A stretch of DNA of 64,000 nucleotides from Pseudodesulfovibrio tunisiensis (GTDB taxonomy: Bacteria > Desulfobacterota > Desulfovibrionia > Desulfovibrionales > Desulfovibrionaceae), in contig NZ_CP094380.1 of NCBI RefSeq assembly GCF_022809775.1, forward strand, positions 2,455,501-2,519,500, given 5' to 3'. Below, piece after piece: positions 4,414 to 39,515 of this stretch. Below the pieces are notes generated by a model that did not search any database, was not told the DNA's origin, and worked only from the letters and a program-made list of their open reading frames with translations. The position numbers and the translations under genes are program-made. Numbering within the stretch: the stretch's first letter is position 1; every line of letters begins with the position of its first letter.

Positions 4414-5520
4414 CTACTTGAAGAGGAATCTTCGCATGGACACGTTCAGGACCAGCCCGACAAGGCAAAAATTAACCAGGGTCGCGCTCCCTCCGTAACT
4501 GATGAACGGCAGGGGTATGCCGACCACAGGCATAAGCCCGAGAACCATACCCATGTTTATGAGGATTTGCCAGAAAAAATAAAAGAACACTCCAGCGGCA
4601 AGATAGCTGCCGAAAAGCCCTCTGGCATCGCGCGCGATCACGACCATTTGGTAAAGAAAAAAGCAGAATAGCGCGAGCAGGATCATGGTTCCGACAAAGC
4701 CCCATTCCTCGCCGAAAACCGCCACGGCAAAGTCGGTGTGCTTCTCCGGCAGAAACCGGAGCTGGGACTGGGTTCCCTCCAGAAATCCCTTTCCCCAGAA
4801 CCGGCCGGAACCGATGGCGATCTCCGACTGGATGATGTGGTAGCCCGAGCCGAGGGGGTCCTTGGTCGGGTCCAGAAAGGTCAGGATGCGCTGCTTCTGG
4901 TAGTCGTGCAGGAAGAACCAGCCGAGCGGAAGCAGGCAGGGGATGGTAACCAGCGCGGTCTTGAAAACCCGGGAAGTCACGCCCCGGAACAGGATCATGC
5001 CGCCGAGCAGCATGAGAATGGACAGGCCGGACCCCAGATCAGGCTGCCTGATGACCAGCCCGGCAGGGATGAGCCCAACGCCCAGAACATACCCGAGCCG
5101 GAGAAAGTCCAATTTTTCACGTTCTCGGGAAAGTATGCGCGCACCAACGACCAGCACGGAAATCTTGGCCAGTTCGCTGGGCTGGAAATTCATGAATCCG
5201 AGGTCGAGCCAGCGGCGTGCTCCGTAGATGGTCTTGCCCGCAAAGAAAATGGACACGAGCAGGGCCACGGTAATCCAGAACAGGGGCCACGCAATGGTCT
5301 TGAGATGGCGGTAGTCGATGACCATGAAGGTCACCATGCCGAGCATGCCGAGCAGCCCCCAGAGAAGCTGCTTGCGATAGTACGGGGCCACGCTCATGCC
5401 GTCCTCGAGCCGAAACCCGCTGGCGGAGTAGAGGTTGAGCACCCCGCACAGGAAAAGCACCACGGCCAGACCGAGCAGAGCCCAGTTGATATGCAGCAGA
5501 AGCCGCCTGTCAAATGCCAT
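4414..5520 (-). CDS. rodA: Rod-shape peptidoglycan glycosyltransferase RodA
   Basis: SEDS-family integral membrane glycan polymerase that extends lateral-wall peptidoglycan with its cognate PBP2. The 368-residue product has about ten membrane segments. It carries the SEDS landmarks NFQPSELAKI (about residues 115-125), a periplasmic loop with FLPEKHTDFAVAV and the C-terminal GIPLPFISYGGSA motif. The ATG at 5520 (MAFDRR) overlaps the end of mrdA by 11 bp. Longer in-frame extensions would lie inside mrdA and are rejected. Confidence 0.96.
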   Translation of the reverse strand: MAFDRRLLLHINWALLGLAVVLFLCGVLNLYSASGFRLEDGMSVAPYYRKQLLWGLLGMLGMVTFMVIDYRHLKTIAWPLFWITVALLVSIFFAGKTIYGARRWLDLGFMNFQPSELAKISVLVVGARILSREREKLDFLRLGYVLGVGLIPAGLVIRQPDLGSGLSILMLLGGMILFRGVTSRVFKTALVTIPCLLPLGWFFLHDYQKQRILTFLDPTKDPLGSGYHIIQSEIAIGSGRFWGKGFLEGTQSQLRFLPEKHTDFAVAVFGEEWGFVGTMILLALFCFFLYQMVVIARDARGLFGSYLAAGVFFYFFWQILINMGMVLGLMPVVGIPLPFISYGGSATLVNFCLVGLVLNVSMRRFLFK

Positions 5521-7387
5521 TGGAATCCCCCTTGGGAAGGGTGCCGTCCGCCTTTTGCGCGGCAAGAGCGCGGTCGATGAGGTGCTGGGGCTTTTTGCGC
5601 ACCTTGCCCGTGAAAAGATAATCGATGGCGGCCTTGACCACGGGCCCGGCTCCGGACCCGCCATGCAGGCCGTGCTCCACCATGGCCACAATGGCAAACC
5701 GCCTGCCATCCTTTTCCGCAGTTGCCGCCATCCAGGCGTGGTCGCGGTACTTGTACGGAATATCCTCGTCCTTCATGGCCTTGAGTTCGTCCGTGAGCCG
5801 CACCACCTGTGCCGTACCGGTCTTGCCGCCCACGATCACGCCCCTGGTACGCAGTCTGCGGGCTGTTCCGCGCGCATTGCGCACGGTTTCGATCAAGGTC
5901 TTCCTGAGCAGGCCGACCTGCTCCCCGTCCAGAGGCAGCCGGGCCTGCACCACCGGACTCTCGTCCTTGACCAGCACGGGCTTCATGAGCTTGCCTCCGT
6001 TGATCATGGCCGCGTAGAACCGGGCCATCTGCAACGGCGTGACCAGCGTATACCCCTGACCGATGGCCATGTTGTAGTTGTCGCCCCCCTGCCACGGCTC
6101 GCCGAACCGGCGGCGCTTCCACTGGCGCGTGGGCATGATCCCGGCCTTTTCATGGGGCAGGTTGATGCCCGTGGGCCTGCCGAATCCGGCAGCGGCCCCG
6201 AACTCGCTCATGCGGTCCACGCCCAGCTTCTTGCCGAGCTTGTAGAAATACACGTCGCAGGACTCCACCAGCGCGCGCTCCAGATCAACGCGACCGTGCC
6301 CCCATTTCTTCCAGCAGCGGAAGACATGGCGGCCCAGCGTGGTCGATCCCGAGCAGTACACGGTCTCCCGGGGGTCCATGGCCCCATACTGCAAACCGGC
6401 TCCGGCCACCACGTGCTTGAACGTGGACCCGGGCGGGTATGCGGACTGGATGGGCCGGTTCTGCATGGGATGCATGGGATCGTCCCGCAGCTTTCGCCAC
6501 TGCTCCGGAGTCAGACCGGAGCTGAAATCATTGGAATCGTAGGACGGCGAACTTGCCAGAGCCCAGAGCTGCCCGGTATCCGCATCCATGACCACCACGG
6601 CTCCGGCCTCGTACCTGAGCCAGTCCATGACCAGCTTCTGCAGACCGAGATCAATGGCCAGGGAAACTTCATGCCCGGCGCGGGGGTGCTTGAGAATCCG
6701 ATCCTCCAGCCGCCTGCCGTTCACGTCCACCTCGAACTGGCGCAGTCCCTTGATGCCGCGAAGCTGGTCCTCAAGCATGAGTTCCAGCCCGAGCTTGCCC
6801 ACATAGTCGCCCAGAGCAAGTTCCTGATCCCTGGCCATTTCCTCTTCATTGGCTTCGGCCACGTAACCGAGAATATGGGCCAGCAGCTTGCCGTACATGT
6901 ACTTGCGGCGGGGCCGGACCTGCACTTCCAGCCCGGGCCAGCGCAGCTTGTTGATCTCGATCAGGGCAAGCTGTTCAAAGGTGAGGTCCGGAATCAGGAT
7001 GAGCGGTTCGAACGGCTTCACGCGCCTGCGCCGCTTGCGGTACAGGTCGCGCAATTCCTCGAAATCCGCCCCGGTCCAAGTGGAAACCTGTTGCAGGGTG
7101 GCGTCGATGTCCTTGCAGTCCTCGCGGACCAGCCCCAGGGCATAGGCGGGTTCGTTCACGGCCAGCAGGTCGCCGGACCGGTCGCGGATCACGCCGCGGG
7201 GCGCGAAAATGAATTCCTTGCGGAGCTGGTTGTCCCGGGCCTTGCGCGCATACTCGTCCCCCTTGTGGATCTGGAGATACCAGAGCCGCATGGCAAACAG
7301 ACAGAACAGCACGAGTATCAGGGTCTGGAGAAGAACCAGCCCGGATTTCGGCGGATGCTTGTCATCGGTGTCATAAAGGTGCGACAT
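5510..7387 (-). CDS. mrdA: Penicillin-binding protein 2 (elongation transpeptidase)
   Basis: Class B PBP crosslinking peptidoglycan in the Rod complex. The 625-residue product has one N-terminal membrane anchor (about residues 16-36), a dimerisation/pedestal domain, and a transpeptidase domain with the catalytic STFK at 321-324, SCD at 376-378 in place of SxN, and KTGTA at 522-526. All active-site motifs are intact. It overlaps both neighbours (mreD by 17 bp, rodA by 11 bp), indicating coupled translation. Confidence 0.96.
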   Translation of the reverse strand: MSHLYDTDDKHPPKSGLVLLQTLILVLFCLFAMRLWYLQIHKGDEYARKARDNQLRKEFIFAPRGVIRDRSGDLLAVNEPAYALGLVREDCKDIDATLQQVSTWTGADFEELRDLYRKRRRRVKPFEPLILIPDLTFEQLALIEINKLRWPGLEVQVRPRRKYMYGKLLAHILGYVAEANEEEMARDQELALGDYVGKLGLELMLEDQLRGIKGLRQFEVDVNGRRLEDRILKHPRAGHEVSLAIDLGLQKLVMDWLRYEAGAVVVMDADTGQLWALASSPSYDSNDFSSGLTPEQWRKLRDDPMHPMQNRPIQSAYPPGSTFKHVVAGAGLQYGAMDPRETVYCSGSTTLGRHVFRCWKKWGHGRVDLERALVESCDVYFYKLGKKLGVDRMSEFGAAAGFGRPTGINLPHEKAGIMPTRQWKRRRFGEPWQGGDNYNMAIGQGYTLVTPLQMARFYAAMINGGKLMKPVLVKDESPVVQARLPLDGEQVGLLRKTLIETVRNARGTARRLRTRGVIVGGKTGTAQVVRLTDELKAMKDEDIPYKYRDHAWMAATAEKDGRRFAIVAMVEHGLHGGSGAGPVVKAAIDYLFTGKVRKKPQHLIDRALAAQKADGTLPKGDSNGI

Positions 7388-24782: not shown

Positions 24783-25262
24783 AAATCAGGCTGGCCCCCA
24801 AAGAGGGAGATGCAAGGCGCAGGAAAGGGGCAGGATCGACGCGTATTCCCATACGCGAGAGTCTGGCCCTTTCGCAGCAACGCCGCAGACTCCCTGCATC
24901 CAAAACAGGCTGGTTCAAAATGGGGAGAGGCAAGGCGCAGGAAAGGGGCAGGATCGACGCGTATTCCCATGCGCGAGAGTCTGGCCCTTTCGCAGCAACG
25001 CCGCAGATTCCCTGCATCCAAAACAGGCTGGTTCAAAATGGGGAGATGCAAGGCGCAGGAAAGGGGCAGGATCGACGCGTATTCCCATACGCGAGAGTCT
25101 GGCCCTTTCGCAGCAACGCCGCAGATTCCCTGCATCCAAAACAGGCTGGTTCAAAATGGGGAGATGCAAGGCGCAAGAAAGGGGCAGGATCGACGCGTAT
25201 TCCCATACGCGAGAGTCTGGCCTTTTCGCAGCAACGCCGCAGATCCCCGTTTTGAGACAGCC
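24783..25262 (+). repeat. Tandem 118-bp repeat, four units
   Basis: The marker GGGAGA followed by GCAAGGCGCAGG recurs at 24805, 24923, 25041 and 25159, an exact 118-bp period. Each unit holds the hairpin CGCGTAT-TCCC-ATACGCG and a boundary block with CAGGCTGGTTCAAAATGG. Units differ at only a few bases, so the expansion is recent. 118 is not a multiple of three and no frame is conserved, so it is non-coding. It fills the whole gap between the kinase and the convergent lytic transglycosylase. A lone diverged relative lies at 54198-54288. Confidence 0.92.
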
Positions 25263-26837: not shown

Positions 26838-27527
26838 CTAGAGGCCGTTGTCCATGCAGTCGGCAAGCCCCTGTTCGTCCAGCACGGCAATGGCGCGGCC
26901 CTTGACCGTGAGCATGCCCAGATCGGCCATGCGGCGCAGGGTTCGGGACAGGGCCTCGGGCGTGACGCCGATGATCTTGGACAGCTCGCGATGGGTCATG
27001 GGCAGATGGATGCGTGCGTCGCCGGTTCGGGGCAGATGGGAGAGGTAGGCGGCCACGCGCTGGGGAATCTCCCGCAGGGACAGGGATTCGATCAGCTCCA
27101 TGGACTGGCGCAGCCGGGTGGAGAGCACGCGCACGATGTTGAACAGCAGGGCCGGGTCCTGCCCGGCAATGGATTCGAATGCAGACATGGACAGGGACAC
27201 GATGCTCGACGGCTCCAGCACGGCCACGCTCGCAGGCGAATGTTCGGCATGAAACGCCGAACACAGGCAGAAGGGTTCGCCCGGGGAAAAGAAGTACAGG
27301 GTCTGCTCCCTGCCCCGGGCCGAGGTCTTGAACATCTTGGCCCGACCACTGACGAGCAGAAAGAAGCCGCGCACCTTCTGCCTTTCCGAAACAATCACCT
27401 CGCCGGGCTGATGCGCGGTTTCCACGGCATTGGCGCAGAACAGGTCGAGCTGTTCGCCGGACACGCCCTTGAAGAATTCCAGCTCGGCAAGCCGGGCCTT
27501 GAGATTCCTTGTCTTTTTTCCGCTCAT
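26838..27527 (-). CDS. Crp/Fnr-family transcriptional regulator
   Basis: Dimeric DNA-binding regulator of about 229 residues: an N-terminal cyclic-nucleotide-binding-like beta-roll (about residues 15-130), a dimer helix and a C-terminal winged helix-turn-helix (about 165-225). The recognition helix reads TPEALSRTLRRM. Its E-x-x-S-R pattern is that of FNR, which reads TTGAT half-sites. It lacks the N-terminal cysteine cluster of FNR, so the signal is not a classical FNR iron-sulfur switch. The ATG at 27527 is chosen. A perfect FNR-type palindrome lies just upstream, and the gene is divergent from the octahaem cytochrome. Confidence 0.88.
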   Translation of the reverse strand: MSGKKTRNLKARLAELEFFKGVSGEQLDLFCANAVETAHQPGEVIVSERQKVRGFFLLVSGRAKMFKTSARGREQTLYFFSPGEPFCLCSAFHAEHSPASVAVLEPSSIVSLSMSAFESIAGQDPALLFNIVRVLSTRLRQSMELIESLSLREIPQRVAAYLSHLPRTGDARIHLPMTHRELSKIIGVTPEALSRTLRRMADLGMLTVKGRAIAVLDEQGLADCMDNGL

Positions 27528-27528
27528 G

Positions 27529-27542
27529 TTGATCTCGATCAA
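27529..27542. promoter_or_regulatory. FNR-type operator, TTGATCTCGATCAA
   Basis: Perfect 14-bp palindrome matching the FNR/ANR consensus TTGAT-N4-ATCAA. It ends 2 bp before the regulator's start codon, so binding should block that gene's expression. On the plus strand it is centred 41.5 bp upstream of a possible start point near 27577, with CATATA at 27565-27570 as -10. This is the class II activation spacing for the cytochrome genes. The transcription start is inferred, not shown. Confidence 0.6.
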
Positions 27543-27770: not shown

Positions 27771-29492
27771 ATGCACGGATTCATGCGGCAAGGCGCGCTC
27801 TGTCTGCTCGCGGCCGTATTCTGGATCGCCGCGGCCGGACAGGGGTTCGCCGCAGTGGACCACGAATCGGCCCCGGGGCGCGAAATGGCCATTCAGGCCA
27901 CCAAGGCAAAGCCTCTGGTCCGCACCAGAACCGCGGATCACAGCAAGTTCAAGGAACTCCAGTTCGACGCGGAAACCCTGAAGACCATGAAGCCCGAGGA
28001 CGTGACCGCCACCTGCCTGAAGTGTCACAATCAGGCGGGCGACCAGTTCCACAAGACCATTCACTGGACATGGCGCGATCTGGAGGACGATGGCAAGCCG
28101 GGCGAATTCGGCAAGGGCGGCATTTCCGTCAACAACTTCTGAATCAACGTGGCAAGCAACGAGGCTCGTTGCACTTCCTGTCACGCCGGCTATGGATGGA
28201 AGGACAAGCATTTCGACTTTGCCTCCCAGAATCGCATCGACTGTCTGGTCTGTCACGAGCAGACCGGCACCTACAAGAAGTTTCCCGCCGGATCCGGATA
28301 TCCCGCGCCGTGGATCGCGGACCCGGAAAATCCGGACAGGCAGAAGGGCAAGCTCTTCAAGGGCAACGGCAAGACCTACTACGCCCCGGACTGGGCCAAG
28401 GTGTCCCAGAGCGTGGGCCTTCCCTCACGCAGGAACTGCGGCACCTGCCACTTTTTCGGTGGCGGGGGCGACGCAGTCAAGCACGGGGACCTGGACTCCT
28501 CCATCACCAGGCCCGGCAAGCAGCTTGATGTGCACATGGGCTCGCAGGAGACCGGTGGCCAGGAATTCCAGTGCACGCGCTGCCATACCACCAAGGCCCA
28601 CCACATAGCGGGCCGCATCTACGGTCGCCCGGCCGCGGCAGAGCGCAAGAGCCTGCTTCAGGACGATCTGGGCGACAAGATCATGTGCGAATCCTGCCAC
28701 GGCACCGAACCGCACATCCGGGGCATGGATGCCAAGCTCAACGACCACACCGACAAGGTGGCGTGCCAGACATGCCACATCCCGGAATACGCCCGGGCGC
28801 AACCCACCAAGATGTGGTGGGACTGGTCCAAGGCCGGACAGCTCATGGACGGCAAGGCCAAGGTCAAGGGCGAGGACGGCAAGCCGATCTTCGACAAGAA
28901 GAAGGGCGAATTCAAGTGGGCCAGAAACGTGGTTCCGGAATACTACTGGTATGACGGCACCCTGTCCCACATCACGATCAAGGACCGCATCGACCCCACG
29001 CACGAGGTCTGGCTGAACCGGCCGAACGGCTCGCGCGACAATCCCAATGCCCGGATCATGCCCTTCAAGGTGCACCGCGGCCTGACTCCGTACGACAAGG
29101 TCAACAAGGTCATGGTGGTGCCGCACCTCTTCCCGAAGGGCAAGGACGACAAGACCGCGTTCTGGAAGCACTTCGACTGGAACAACTCCATCAGGGCGGG
29201 CATGGAATACGTTGGTCAGCCCTACAGCGGCGAATACGGATTCGTGCAGACCGCGTACGTGTTCCCCACCACCCACATGGTGGCCCCGCGCGAAAATGCG
29301 CTTCAGTGCAGCGCCTGCCACAGCCGCACCGATAGCCGCCTCAAGAATCTGGGCGGGTTCTACATGCCTGCGCGCGACTCGTTCAAGGTCGTGGACGCGG
29401 CAGGCTGGTTCGGCGTGGGCGCGTCCCTTGTGGCCGTCATCATCCACGGGATCATGCGCTTCGTTGCCGGCCTGAAGCGCAAGGAGGAGTAG
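27771..29492 (+). CDS. Octahaem c-type cytochrome, tetrathionate-reductase family, with in-frame TGA (candidate selenoprotein)
   Basis: Periplasmic multihaem reductase-like protein read through a TGA at 28140-28142. ATG 27771 has GGAGG seven bases upstream and begins a signal peptide (to about residue 28, AGQGFAA). Eight CXXCH motifs follow: CLKCH before the TGA, then CTSCH, CLVCH, CGTCH, CTRCH, CESCH, CQTCH and CSACH. A C-terminal membrane helix (SLVAVIIHGIMRFVAG) anchors it. The TGA falls in NNF-x-INVASNEARCTSCHAGYGWKD. In relatives I recall, this position is Cys (NNFCI). The same frame continues without any other lesion, haem spacing is normal, and a hairpin suited to a bacterial SECIS follows. 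The alternatives are a nonsense mutation or a sequence error. It sits 3 bp upstream of a cytochrome b gene. Confidence 0.85.
28149..28184 (+). promoter_or_regulatory. Candidate bacterial SECIS hairpin
   Basis: Immediately downstream of the TGA. The lower stem is GTGGCA (28149-28154) with TGTCAC (28179-28184, one G-U pair). The upper stem is GCAACG (28156-28161) with CGTTGC (28167-28172). The apical loop is AGGCU (28162-28166), starting 20 nt after the TGA. A guanine early in a short loop at this distance is what SelB-dependent elements such as that of E. coli fdhF show. Folding energy was not computed. Confidence 0.6.
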
Positions 29493-29495
29493 GCC

Positions 29496-30152
29496 ATGAC
29501 CGGACACAAGATGAAGAAGATATACCTGTACAGCAAGTTCGAGCGGTTCTGGCACTGGATTCAGGCCATCCTGATCATCCTTCTGCTCGCCACGGGATTC
29601 GAGGTGCACGGCACCATCGACCTGCTCGGGTTCATGAAGGCCGTGGACCTGCACAACACCATCGGCCTGACATGGCTGATCCTGTTCGTGTTCATCGTGT
29701 TCTGGCTGTTCGTGACCCACGAGTACAAGCAGTATGCGCCGACGTCCAAAAAGCTGCTGGAAGTGATCCGGTACTATGCCTCGGGCATATTCAGGGGCGA
29801 GCCGCATCCGGTGCAGAAGCGCAAGGACGCCAAGCACAACCCCATGCAGCGCCTGACCTATCTGGGGCTGACCGCAGTGCTGCTGCCGCTCCAGATGATC
29901 ACGGGCCTGCTCTACTGGGGCTACAACGACTGGACCGATTGGGGCGTGGCCGGGTTCCTGACTCTGGACATGGTGGCCCTGATCCACATGATCGGCGCGT
30001 TCGCCATCCTCATCTTCCTGCTGGTCCACCTGTACATGACCACCACGGGCCATACGGTCACGGCCCATGTGGCGGCCATGTTCTCGGGCTGGGAGGAAGT
30101 TCCGGAAGAGGAAGAAATCGAGGAATGGGAACGCAAGGTCGAACGCCCGTAG
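29496..30152 (+). CDS. Cytochrome b561-type membrane subunit
   Basis: Integral membrane di-haem cytochrome b of 218 residues, probably passing quinol electrons to the octahaem cytochrome. Four main membrane helices have His residues in FERFWHWIQA, VDLHNTIGL, ALIHMIGAFA and LVHLYMTTTGHT, the pattern of thiosulfate-reductase/Ni-Fe-hydrogenase cytochrome b proteins. An acidic C-terminal tail follows. AAGGAGGAG lies just before the ATG and the gene begins 3 bp after the cytochrome c stop, so the two are co-transcribed. A terminator follows. Confidence 0.9.
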   Translation: MTGHKMKKIYLYSKFERFWHWIQAILIILLLATGFEVHGTIDLLGFMKAVDLHNTIGLTWLILFVFIVFWLFVTHEYKQYAPTSKKLLEVIRYYASGIFRGEPHPVQKRKDAKHNPMQRLTYLGLTAVLLPLQMITGLLYWGYNDWTDWGVAGFLTLDMVALIHMIGAFAILIFLLVHLYMTTTGHTVTAHVAAMFSGWEEVPEEEEIEEWERKVERP

Positions 30153-34232: not shown

Positions 34233-37019
34233 ATGTTGAAACGCAAACTCGATACCATGCGAACGTTCGTAGGAACTCTGTCCCTGTGCGGCCTGCTGGC
34301 CCTTCCGGGAATCGCGCTTGCCGAATCGGCATACGTGCTTGGCGAAGGCACCCCCCAGACCATAGGCGGGGAGAGCACCAAAACCGATTTTACAAAAGAC
34401 GATTTTGCAACGCCTGATGGGGCCACCGACTCCTTCAGCATCGTCTCCGGTAGCGTGAATAACGGTTCCGTGAACTTTGATGGAGAGGTTACGGGAACGG
34501 TCGACCCGTCGGAAACCAAGAAAAATCTTTACGGGGTCCGCCTTACCGGAACCGACAAGGCCGGTTCCAAGGTCACCATCGTCAACGGTAGCCTTAAACT
34601 AACCAACGGCAGTGGAAGCACCTGCGGCGTTGTTTCCGAACAGGCTGACACCACGGTGAAGCTCAGCAAGAATACAGCTATTACGGCAGACACCGGAGCC
34701 GAACTTTCCGGTGACAACGCCAAGGTTGATAACAACGGCACAATCACTGCCACAACCGGAGCCGAACTTTCCGGTGACAACAGCGAATTCAATAATTACG
34801 GCACGGTGACGGCCTCGGATGTGGGCGTTCGCATGACCGGCGACGATGCCTATTTCTACAATGGCGAAAACTGCAACATCACAGCTGACGGATCAGCCGA
34901 GACAAGCGTTGGCGTTGTGATCCAAAAGGGTGACGAGAACCAAACGAGTACCAACAACGGTACGATTTCGGGATTCGCGACCGGCATCGAGATGGGAGAC
35001 GGCAAGGTCGAGAATTTGGGTCAGATAACTGACGCCAAGATCGGCATCAAGGCCGATTCCGGTACTGTCTCGAACATAAAAAACAGTGGGTCTTGTGGCA
35101 CCATCAAGGCCGAAACCGGCATCGAGATGGGTAGCGGTACGGTCGAGAATTCCGGTCAGATAACTGCCACCGATGTCGGAATCAAGGTGGCTTCCCAAGG
35201 CTACATCACTAATGAAGGTTCCATTTCGGCTTCTCAGACCGGAATCGAGATGGTGAAAGGCGAAGCCATCAACTCCGGCGCGATAACCGATGCCAAGGTC
35301 GGAATCAAGGTCAACGCCACAACTGGCAGCAACTCTGTCACCAACAAAAGCGCCGGCACCATCTCGGCTTCCGAAACAGGCATCGATGTGGGATCTGGCA
35401 ATGTCATCAACGACGGAACGATCAGCAATGCCAAAACCGGAATCAAGGTTGCCTCTGGCACTGCCCGCAACTACAGCTCGATCTCAGCGGACACCGGAAT
35501 CGAAATAGAAAGCGGCCAAGCTTCCAACTCCGGTGAAATCGCCGCCAAAATCGGAATACTGGCAACGGGCAATGTGGATGTGAAAAACACCGGAACAATC
35601 ACCAGTTCCGAAGCCTGCATCAGGGTTGATGCTGGCAACAAGTCCGTGACAATCACCAACACCGGCCAGCTGCTGACCACGGGCAATGGCTATGAAATGC
35701 GTATTGCCAGCGGCACGGCCACTCTGGCTGAGGGATACACCCTCACCCTTGACGGCACGCCGACCACCCCATCCATTCTTGTTGACAATGGCGCGACCCT
35801 GGATTTGGCAAATACGCCGCTGAAGGTTGAAGGAACGAAATACGAAACCGATTACACAGTGTTCGGGATGGACGGTACCGCAGCCATCAACGGCAAATGG
35901 GGGACAATGTCCACCCCGAATCCGAACTACGTGGTCACCTACACCAAGGGCGACAGCCGCGCCGACGACACGGTGCGTCTCGACTACAAGCCTGAGCAGT
36001 CCTCCTCCAACGTGTCCGCGGAAGTGGCCGAACTGTCGGTCATGAATGCGGTGAACGTGGTGCAGAACCGCATGGCCACGAACGCCATGATGCAGTCGCT
36101 GGCCCAGACCATGCTCGCGGAGAACGAATCCCCGGTCATGGTTGCGGATGCGCGCACCACGGCCACGGACATCGGCGGGGGCGTGCTGCCCGAGGACAAG
36201 GGCAACCATGACGTGTTCGCCATGCCCTACGGCTCCTGGTCCAAGTCCACACGTTCGCCCATGGGCTATGAAGCCACGGTCGGCGGCCTGACCCTTGGCT
36301 GGGAATACCAGAACGACAACACCGTACTCGGCATCCACGGCGGCTACGGCCGCGCAGGCATCGACTTCAACGGCAGCGGCTACACCCGGAACAGCGAGGA
36401 TCAGGACCTGTTCACCCTCGGCGTGCATGCAGGCAAGCTGTGGGGCAAGTGGCTGCTTAGCGGTTCCATCACCCCGTATCTGACCCTGCACGACTACAAG
36501 GGCATGACCGGCGTGAACCTGACCGACCGCGAAAAGGCCGACTACGAGAGCTTCGGCTCGGTCAATCGCATCCTCGGCGGTTACCAGTTCGTATACGACG
36601 ACAACATCTTCATGCCGACCCTCGGCCTGACGCACATCTGGATTCATCGCGATCGCTACACCACCAAGGTCACGGGCGGAACCGGAACCACCTACAATAC
36701 GCTCGACGATCACGAGTTGCAGGCCAACGCGGGTCTGCGCTGGATGCGCAACATCGAATGCGACGGCTTCACGCTCGTCCCGTCCGTGTACGCAGGACTG
36801 CGTCAGACCCTGACCGATGGTTCGACCTCGACCACCCAGTCCGTGCCCGGAGCCACTCCTGTCACGGTCAACTCCAAGAGCGACCTGACCGCCGCCAACC
36901 TCGAAGCGTTCGTCTCCATGATCAAGGGCGACTGGACCTTCCAGCTTGGCTATGCCGGCGAAATGTCCGACCAGAATCAGGATCACGGCGCATGGCTCCG
37001 CGCCAAGTGGGCCTTTTAA
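34233..37019 (+). CDS. Autotransporter (type Va) with repetitive passenger
   Basis: Self-secreting outer-membrane protein of 928 residues. A signal peptide (about residues 8-30, cleaved after ALA) is followed by a Gly/Thr/Asn/Ser-rich passenger (about 35-590) made of degenerate repeats of roughly 20 residues of the type GTIS.A.TGI.V.SG.V.N.G, which should fold as a beta-helix. The C-terminal ~280 residues form the autotransporter barrel, with MPYGSWSKSTRSPMGYEATVGGLTLGWEY, an internal GIHGGYGRAGIDF strand and a terminal aromatic residue (AKWAF). The passenger probably acts as an adhesin or surface layer; its target is unknown. The ATG has AGGAGC upstream. Confidence 0.92.
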   Translation: MLKRKLDTMRTFVGTLSLCGLLALPGIALAESAYVLGEGTPQTIGGESTKTDFTKDDFATPDGATDSFSIVSGSVNNGSVNFDGEVTGTVDPSETKKNLYGVRLTGTDKAGSKVTIVNGSLKLTNGSGSTCGVVSEQADTTVKLSKNTAITADTGAELSGDNAKVDNNGTITATTGAELSGDNSEFNNYGTVTASDVGVRMTGDDAYFYNGENCNITADGSAETSVGVVIQKGDENQTSTNNGTISGFATGIEMGDGKVENLGQITDAKIGIKADSGTVSNIKNSGSCGTIKAETGIEMGSGTVENSGQITATDVGIKVASQGYITNEGSISASQTGIEMVKGEAINSGAITDAKVGIKVNATTGSNSVTNKSAGTISASETGIDVGSGNVINDGTISNAKTGIKVASGTARNYSSISADTGIEIESGQASNSGEIAAKIGILATGNVDVKNTGTITSSEACIRVDAGNKSVTITNTGQLLTTGNGYEMRIASGTATLAEGYTLTLDGTPTTPSILVDNGATLDLANTPLKVEGTKYETDYTVFGMDGTAAINGKWGTMSTPNPNYVVTYTKGDSRADDTVRLDYKPEQSSSNVSAEVAELSVMNAVNVVQNRMATNAMMQSLAQTMLAENESPVMVADARTTATDIGGGVLPEDKGNHDVFAMPYGSWSKSTRSPMGYEATVGGLTLGWEYQNDNTVLGIHGGYGRAGIDFNGSGYTRNSEDQDLFTLGVHAGKLWGKWLLSGSITPYLTLHDYKGMTGVNLTDREKADYESFGSVNRILGGYQFVYDDNIFMPTLGLTHIWIHRDRYTTKVTGGTGTTYNTLDDHELQANAGLRWMRNIECDGFTLVPSVYAGLRQTLTDGSTSTTQSVPGATPVTVNSKSDLTAANLEAFVSMIKGDWTFQLGYAGEMSDQNQDHGAWLRAKWAF

Positions 37020-37396: not shown

Positions 37397-37598
37397 TTTT
37401 CTCCCTTTCCGGTTCCGAAGCTGGCCCGGGAGGGTCTTGATCGACTGACGACTTGCGGATCATGTTTTTGCATGGAATAAGAGGATGGCAGAACGTCATC
37501 TTCGCACGCCGCATGCGTTCCCTTTGGTCTTTTCCTCCTTTTCCGCGGTGTGCAGCCAAAAAGTTTTGGGGGAATTCCCACCCCGGCAAGGAGTCGTG

Positions 37599-39515
37599 AT
37601 GAAAACCATATCCGCATGCACGCTGGACTGCCCGGACTGCTGTTCGCTGATCATTGATTCGAAAAAGCGTGCGGTTCGCGGCAACCCGGACCATCCGTTC
37701 ACCCGGGGATTCTGTTGTGCCAAGGGGAAACGCACCCTTGAAAGACTGGACTCCGACGAGCGTATTGTTGAACCGTTAATCAAGGAAAACGGCAGGTTAC
37801 GAAGCGCTGATTGGAATGAGGCCCTGAATCTGGTCGCCGGGAGGATTCAGGCTTTGCAGGCAACGCCCGAGGCCATGCTGCATATTCACGGATATGGCTC
37901 CCGGGGTGTTCTGGCAAAGGCGTCCACCCGTTTTTTCGAGGCGCTGGGGGCGTCCACGCATCACGGAGCCCTGTGCGACGACACCGGAATCGAGGCGTGC
38001 CTGCGCGATTTCGGCGCGCTGGACATGAACGACCCGAACCAGATTCTCGAAGCTGGACGCATCGTGAATTGGGGCAGGGACCTGAGCCGAAGCTCCGTGC
38101 ATATGCAGGAACTGGTGGGCAGGGCGCGCAAGGCCGGGACACCTGTGCTTTCCATTTCCCCGGGCGGAGACGGCAACCGCGACCTGTCCGACGAGATCGT
38201 CATGATCCGTCCGGGCACGGACCGTTTTCTGGCTGCGGCCGTGATTCGCAGGCTGCTGGAAATGGGTCGCATCCGCAAGAGCGTGCTGCGCCGCACATAT
38301 GCGCCGGATGCATTTCTGGACCTGATCCGTTCCTGCGATGAAAACGCACTGCTCTCGGCCTGCGAGGTGCGGCATGCTGATCTGGACATGCTGTGCGAAT
38401 GGTATGCGGACGAGACTCCGGTCGCCACGCTCCTTGGCTGGGGAACCCAGCGGCACGTGTTCGGCGGGGAGAACTTCCGGTTCATCAACGCGTTGATCAT
38501 GCTGTCCGGCAACGTGGGCAGGCCGGGCGCAGGCGGGTATTTCAACATTTCCTCCACGCGCAATTTCGGACGCTGGAACGCTCTGCGCGATGGCCGGGAG
38601 GTACGGCCCGAGGATGTACCGGAGCGTCGAAGTTTTCTGCTGCCTGATCTGGTTCGGGAATTGAACCGGGCCGATCCGCCCGTATCCTTCATCTGGGTGG
38701 ATGCCCACAACGTGGTCAACCAGATTCCGGACGCGGTCGGCGCGGCCATGGCCTTTGCCGATCCGTTCGTGGTGGTCGTGGATGGCTTCATGACCGACAC
38801 GGCCCTGTGTGCGGACGTGATTCTGCCCCCGGCTTTTGCCCCGGAGCGGGAGGACGTGCTCGGCTCGTGCCTGCACGACTTCGTGAATCTGTCGGCCAAG
38901 GCAGTGGAACCTCGCGGAGCATGCCGCACGGATTTCGACATGCTGACCGATCTGGGGGCGCGACTGTCTCCGGCCATATCCTTTCCCGCACCGGACGATT
39001 GCCTGCGCACGGCGCTGGCCGATTCCGGGCTTTCACTGGATGAACTGAGGCGGAACGGATTTGTCCGGGGACCGCATGGAGAAATCGCGTTTCCGGATCT
39101 GCAATTCGGTCATGCGGACGGATTGTACCGTTTTCCCGAAAAACTCGATCCGGAACCGGAGCGCGATCCGGAATATCCTCTGCAACTGCTTTCGCTGGTA
39201 CGCGGTTCGGCCCAGCATTCCCAGATGGCGGAGAAGGACCAGCGCGGCATTCCCAAGGTGTGGGTTGCCAGAAGCAATCCGGCGTGGGCCGCCATGGACC
39301 CGGCGCGGGATACGTATCTGGTCACGCCCATGGGATCGATGCAGGTGGCGCTGGAAACCGTGGAAGGGCTGCATCCCCGCGTCGTGATCATGCGCCGGGG
39401 CGGCTGGTTGATGTTCGGCCACAACCCCAATGCCGTGATCGAGCCGCGTCTTACGGACATGGGCGACGGCGCGGCCTATTACAGCCAGTGCTGCCGTCTT
39501 GAAAATCCCGAGTGA
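37599..39515 (+). CDS. Molybdopterin-dependent oxidoreductase (DMSO reductase superfamily)
   Basis: Single-subunit molybdopterin enzyme of 638 residues. The N-terminal [4Fe-4S] motif is CTLDCPDC (C7, C11, C14) with a fourth ligand at about C39/C40. It is followed by the cofactor-binding GYGSRGVLAKASTRF region, GGENFRFINALIMLSGNVGRPGAGGYF (about residues 290-316) and a C-terminal dinucleotide-binding domain with SQMAEKDQRG. There is no Tat signal, so it is probably cytoplasmic. No electron-transfer subunits are adjacent, and the substrate is unknown. The ATG at 37599 has AAGGAG five bases upstream. Confidence 0.85.
   Translation: MKTISACTLDCPDCCSLIIDSKKRAVRGNPDHPFTRGFCCAKGKRTLERLDSDERIVEPLIKENGRLRSADWNEALNLVAGRIQALQATPEAMLHIHGYGSRGVLAKASTRFFEALGASTHHGALCDDTGIEACLRDFGALDMNDPNQILEAGRIVNWGRDLSRSSVHMQELVGRARKAGTPVLSISPGGDGNRDLSDEIVMIRPGTDRFLAAAVIRRLLEMGRIRKSVLRRTYAPDAFLDLIRSCDENALLSACEVRHADLDMLCEWYADETPVATLLGWGTQRHVFGGENFRFINALIMLSGNVGRPGAGGYFNISSTRNFGRWNALRDGREVRPEDVPERRSFLLPDLVRELNRADPPVSFIWVDAHNVVNQIPDAVGAAMAFADPFVVVVDGFMTDTALCADVILPPAFAPEREDVLGSCLHDFVNLSAKAVEPRGACRTDFDMLTDLGARLSPAISFPAPDDCLRTALADSGLSLDELRRNGFVRGPHGEIAFPDLQFGHADGLYRFPEKLDPEPERDPEYPLQLLSLVRGSAQHSQMAEKDQRGIPKVWVARSNPAWAAMDPARDTYLVTPMGSMQVALETVEGLHPRVVIMRRGGWLMFGHNPNAVIEPRLTDMGDGAAYYSQCCRLENPE

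Follow-up and report, generated by a model that had tools for sequence, protein, structure and literature searches.

A candidate selenocysteine at the conserved active-site cysteine position of an octahaem tetrathionate-reductase-family cytochrome

The octahaem cytochrome gene and its surroundings

The window (the whole stretch of 64,000 nucleotides of Pseudodesulfovibrio tunisiensis DNA that was analysed) contains a gene for a c-type cytochrome of the octahaem tetrathionate reductase (OTR) family, listed with its surroundings in Table 1. The product scores 578.2 bits against the TIGR04315 profile, above the curated cut-off of 375 for membership of the family, and a second family profile, PF11783, was found for the gene as well. 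(PF11390, which was also tried as the OTR family, was rejected; this accession is FdsD and gave no match.) Re-reading of the gene turned up exactly one internal stop, a TGA at the codon for residue 124 of 573, with the frame intact on both sides, as the initial annotation of this DNA had claimed. The CXXCH motifs, at residue 82 ahead of the TGA and at residues 134, 158, 223, 268, 306, 332 and 513 after it, amount to the eight of an octahaem protein and agree with the earlier description of one haem motif before the stop and seven after. The signal peptide and C-terminal anchor that had been described are matched by an N-terminus that resembles a signal peptide by eye and by a hydrophobic helix that follows the last CXXCH at the C-terminus. 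The TGA does lie shortly before the second CXXCH, as had been stated, but the distance to the first Cys of that motif is 10 residues rather than about 11.

The active site can be compared with that of the OTR of Shewanella oneidensis (1SP3, TIGR04315). Lys153 and Cys64 are regarded as the catalytic residues of the Shewanella enzyme, Lys153 as the distal ligand of the catalytic haem. At the window locus these positions are occupied by Lys237, which is invariant in a 56-row alignment, and by the TGA, so that both catalytic residues would have counterparts if the TGA is read as selenocysteine (Sec). Besides having TGA, or Sec, in place of Cys64, the window locus differs from Shewanella OTR in the C-terminal hydrophobic helix, which lies past the matched range, and in the adjacent cytochrome b gene. 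The haem next to the TGA is haem II, which is the catalytic haem in OTR according to the accessible part of PMC4484225. Note that the predicted structure is poor at the active site, with pLDDT below 50 at residues 122-142. (Open frames that run through the tandem array listed in Table 1 are probably spurious.)

Table 1. Positions in the window of the OTR gene, its elements and other features.
Feature	Position	Strand	Remarks
Tandem array	24805-25248		118-bp unit, 3.8 copies, 97% matches; just past a PAS/histidine-kinase gene
Crp/Fnr-type regulator	26838-27542	-	divergent, adjoins the OTR gene
Octahaem tetrathionate-reductase-family c-type cytochrome (TIGR04315)	27771..29492	+	573 residues and 8 CXXCH with the TGA read through
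TGA read as selenocysteine (candidate), residue 124	28140..28142	+	aligned with Cys64 of Shewanella OTR, 1SP3
SECIS-like hairpin, type A	28156..28172	+	7-bp stem, apical GGC at 28163-28165, loop 20 nt past the TGA
Second CXXCH (CTSCH), residues 134-138	28170..28184	+	haem II attachment site
Lys237	28479..28481	+	aligned with Lys153 of 1SP3
Cytochrome b561-type membrane subunit (PF01292)	29496..30152	+	begins 3 nt past the OTR stop codon
Autotransporter beta-domain protein (PF03797)	34233-37019	+	repetitive-looking N-terminal part
Molybdopterin oxidoreductase (PF00384)	37485-39515	+	

The TGA column and the hairpins downstream of it

We read the codon at the TGA column in homologous loci from two sources. 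Among 80 loci from named genomes, 79 reach the column (L064 ends short of it) and carry TGC (45), TGT (30) or TGA (4). A further 96 loci, with TGA in 46, TGC in 32 and TGT in 18, were drawn from matches in scans of 288 and 395 genomes; from both scans every TGA match listed was read, but matches without a stop were read only in part. Removal of three duplicates (L001 and L002 duplicate same-genus genomes, G227 and G231) left 172 distinct loci, the window's own included, of which 124 have Cys and 48 have TGA at the column. Consistent with the conserved Cys that had been expected, then, Cys is found at all 124 loci without TGA as well as in 1SP3, and 47 distinct loci besides the window's own share its TGA in this position. 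A residue that is neither Cys nor conserved was not seen at the column in any of the 172 loci; nor was TAA or TAG, and none of these loci has another in-frame stop ahead of its natural end. (Extra stops within the alignment occur in four Cys rows, all at query residue 570, which is the gene's natural end.) The TGA forms are spread over 12 family codes (f1, f9, f29, f33, f35, f42, f62, f65, f66, f76, f80 and f101) and also occur in two named MAGs, one of the Desulfohalobiaceae (L013) and one of the Thermodesulfobacteriaceae (L019). The locus has, in short, what is looked for in a bacterial selenoprotein gene: a UGA in frame at a position where homologues conserve Cys.

The hairpin that had been noticed after the TGA, with a purine-rich AGGCU loop 20 nt away, is real and lies at the distance claimed. 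We read its stem arms as 28156-28162 and 28166-28172, an alternative reading being a 6-bp stem with the AGGCU loop. RNAfold applied to positions 28140-28185 adds an outer stem, which begins 5 nt past the TGA. As given in the accessible part of PMC13188914, the bSECIS model calls for a loop of 3-9 nt, a stem of 4-16 bp, a G among the first two loop nucleotides, a spacing of 16-37 nt and an MFE of at most -7.5. When these features were scored uniformly with our own script, which used contiguous stems, 48 of 48 TGA loci passed compared to 5 of 124 Cys loci (L006, L027, L038, L061 and L062, the last four of which have different hairpins). The window hairpin falls within these limits, with 7 bp, GGC and 20 nt, and with an MFE of -7.5 for the bare stem-loop, which sits exactly on the limit, and of -9.0 with short flanks. 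A search of Rfam gave no SECIS match.

The hairpins of the 48 TGA loci are of two types, each with 24 members. Type A, that of the window, encodes (S/G)NEARC and has a 7-bp stem with an apical GGC, the loop lying 20 nt past the TGA. In type B the encoded sequence is (S/T)NWCRC, the stem has 7 bp (10 bp in three loci), and the apical AGGU is 24 nt downstream of the TGA. All 24 type-A TGA loci have the same 17 hairpin bases. Identity at synonymous codons is 1.00 in the type-A hairpin compared to 0.48 just downstream and 0.51 for the same codons in 102 Cys loci; for type B the corresponding values are 0.935, 0.43 and 0.45. In two type-B loci the stem reads TGT where the others have TGC, a change that by our reading turns G-C into G-U and keeps the stem. 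Moreover, the residue after Glu/Trp is Ala in all type-A and Cys in all type-B proteins; of the 90 comparable Cys loci, 73 have Pro here, and thus the RNA seems to constrain the protein. Against recodings of the same peptide with random synonymous codons, the median z of the folding energy is -1.29 for type A, -1.25 for type B and 0.0 for the Cys loci, and p<=0.05 was reached by 3 of 24, 6 of 24 and 5 of 102 loci, respectively. Because the folding energy is only mildly low relative to the recodings, we do not rest the case for Sec on it.

Readings of the TGA and a proposed function

The initial annotation had suggested a search of the genome for selA, selB, selC and selD, and all four are there. 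The tRNA-Sec (selC) scores 80.6 bits, over its cut-off, at G000:C1:2451954-2452043, about 3.5 kb ahead of the window, and selA, selB and selD also exceed their cut-offs. (The tRNA-Sec is about 31 kb from the OTR gene, a proximity that is probably coincidence.) One TGA is carried by selD, and one by each of three full-length genes for FdhA, the formate dehydrogenase. As in the OTR gene, a predicted hairpin lies downstream of the UGA in the fdhA genes, its apex being GGC (L131 and L133) or GGG (L132); unlike OTR, FdhA is an unrelated protein and its hairpin has a longer, interrupted stem. Across genomes, selB exceeds its cut-off in 42 of the 44 that have a TGA gene; no selB was found in the other two, G367 (96% complete) and G665 (81% complete). 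Among genomes whose OTR rows were free of stops, in some of which the OTR codon itself was unread, the figure is 33 of 36. Since selB is similarly frequent with and without TGA, its presence is consistent with Sec and does not discriminate. (On contig C75 of G222, a selB match at 1168-2259 and a TGA-containing OTR gene at 5123-6808, L205, lie about 3 kb apart.)

Were the window gene the only one of its kind, its lone in-frame stop would normally point to a pseudogene or a sequencing error, the open frames on both sides being remnants. The same TGA, however, stands in the same column at 48 distinct loci from 12 family groups, and this recurrence across independent genomes makes a sequencing error untenable and in effect refutes a pseudogene. 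All eight haem motifs are retained. Moreover, in comparisons of the window gene with seven same-genus genes (six with TGA and one with Cys), dN/dS was 0.11-0.24 upstream of the TGA in all seven pairs, while downstream of it one pair was saturated and the other six gave 0.15-0.26; the gene is under purifying selection on both sides of the TGA, and values of 0.11-0.26 in the unsaturated pairs are not those of remnants. We regard decay or error as extremely improbable. Low dN/dS on both sides, together with a lack of restart codons at most TGA loci, also fits poorly with a split gene, that is, with a short protein that ends at the TGA and a separate haem cytochrome that restarts, for example, at GTG 28149. 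Gene finders do yield such pieces, since both the window's 447-aa open reading frame and a 447-aa database entry, P0002, begin after the TGA. Nevertheless, in 36 of the 48 TGA loci the first 15 codons downstream of the TGA include no ATG, GTG or TTG in frame, and TGA is the only stop seen on the active-site Cys column, TAA and TAG both being absent. The second piece would also be without a signal peptide, which is required for c-type haem attachment outside the cytoplasm. Two proteins are thus very unlikely, if slightly less so than a pseudogene or an error. Readthrough of the UGA with a residue other than Sec (near-cognate decoding would insert Trp or Cys) would leave the protein whole; given a SECIS-type hairpin at 48 of 48 TGA loci and a complete Sec machinery, we give it next to no weight.

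The Cys/TGA column, the bSECIS hairpin and the sel genes all support the candidate selenocysteine that had been put forward, and the best reading is that the TGA at 28140-28142 encodes Sec at the conserved active-site Cys position, to which, arguing from sequence, we assign a probability of about 0.96. SelB, docked on the hairpin whose loop is 20 nt away, would deliver Sec-tRNA(Sec) to the UGA, as the genes and the hairpin suggest. The product would then be a periplasmic, membrane-tethered octahaem OTR cytochrome with Sec as its Cys64-equivalent active-site residue. At the catalytic haem II the selenol would probably act as nucleophile and leaving group, beside the lysine-ligated iron.

Of the loci with room for it, 18 of the 24 of type A, 18 of the 24 of type B and 84 of the 115 with Cys have a PF01292 gene immediately downstream of the OTR gene on the same strand, and the cytochrome b that this gene encodes is likely the redox partner of the OTR protein. 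Judging from gene order and family, this cytochrome b would probably relay electrons between menaquinone and the haem chain, and we infer that the OTR gene product is a quinone-linked, membrane-tethered reductase. The Crp/Fnr-type gene is found beside the OTR gene at two of the 20 type-A loci with room for it and at none of the 20 type-B or 110 Cys loci, and is therefore not a conserved partner. The putative substrate here, by analogy with Cys relatives that reduce tetrathionate, nitrite and hydroxylamine (accessible parts of PMC6449678 and PMC4484225), may be an S-S compound such as tetrathionate, or else nitrite or hydroxylamine.

Sec and Cys forms within the family

To relate the Sec and Cys forms, we used a 172-row tree built by a quick method (LG+G4) with the Sec and hairpin residues masked, in which long branches, the paralogue group described below among them, were flagged. 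On this tree type B forms one side of a branch with SH-aLRT 98, and at least nine changes between Sec and Cys are needed, of which six are required, for the Cys label, by well-supported branches. Within the phylum, the two forms have probably replaced each other several times. A single type-A clade was rejected with p-AU 1.5e-6 on a mixture-model tree of 47 of the 172 rows, the type-A group for this test having been named after the first tree was known. Individual Cys loci lie among Sec genes: L105 within a well-supported 12-row same-genus group with 11 Sec members, L155 within a well-supported 4-row group with three, and L006, labelled Desulfatitalea, next to the Sec gene L159 (support 88). 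The sole Cys locus with the full 17-base type-A hairpin is L006, whose TGT codon is one base from the Sec codon. It is likely a SECIS fossil left by a recent replacement of Sec with Cys, and because of this leftover hairpin it is the only locus for which that direction is likely. The simplest reading of the tree as a whole would be repeated loss of Sec to Cys together with some gain or transfer, the direction being deduced rather than seen. According to the accessible part of PMC13188914, replacement of Sec by Cys in bacteria is rare and documented primarily for FdhA and SelD; OTR, if the reading holds, would be a further and well-sampled case. Sec and Cys forms within one genus are, moreover, matched enzymes for comparison, and if selenium does sit at the haem active site, they offer a natural Sec/Cys set for probing the OTR active-site thiol.

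A Sec paralogue (L142-L147) is present in six same-genus genomes and gave no match in the window's own genome. It joins a class III cytochrome domain to an OTR domain, is about 40% identical, has TGA followed by an identical type-A hairpin, and carries 13 CXXCH, five ahead of the codon and eight past it; seven Cys relatives of the paralogue (L148-L153 and L158) have the same haem count. L142, the sole paralogue examined for neighbours, starts with a class III cytochrome domain and follows Fer4 and NrfD genes. This arrangement resembles an OTR-family module with an NrfD/HybB-like quinol oxidase and a tail-anchored Fe-S protein that is described in PMC10924467, the window gene being paired with a cytochrome b instead; the accessible passages of that paper make no mention of Sec in the module's cytochrome. 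With moderate confidence, we favour a view in which OTR enzymes have made wide use of selenium next to the catalytic haem, with two SECIS elements, repeated Sec/Cys exchange, a fossil at L006, protein sequence dictated by the hairpin, and Sec also in the 13-CXXCH, NrfD-linked form.

The initial annotation knew of no described Sec form of this enzyme, but one is on record. In the accessible part of PMC13188914 (2026), Table 1 lists TIGR04315 as a selenoprotein family with one Sec, motif not available, represented by WP_331457571.1 and marked as GenBank annotated, so that Sec OTR is already known from this entry; octaheme and tetrathionate each occur once in that text, both in this table row. 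WP_331457571.1 shares its family and a single Sec with the window protein, and the residue is very likely the same. The same table includes ExtKL (NF040886), which like OTR is a multihaem c-type cytochrome with one Sec but belongs to a different family, motif again not available. The word tetrathionate is absent from the main text of the review PMC9312934, and in the literature covered, which took in little of the subscription journals, we found no description of the position, SECIS, spread or evolution of Sec OTR. The present analysis adds the identity of the residue, the two SECIS classes, the 12 family groups, the NrfD-linked Sec paralogue, the repeated Sec/Cys exchange and the one fossil SECIS.

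Because gene finders can cut the enzyme at the TGA, with loss of the signal peptide, the first haem and the active-site residue, it may be under-reported in sulfate reducers. Six other N-terminally short database entries are probably of the same kind as P0002.
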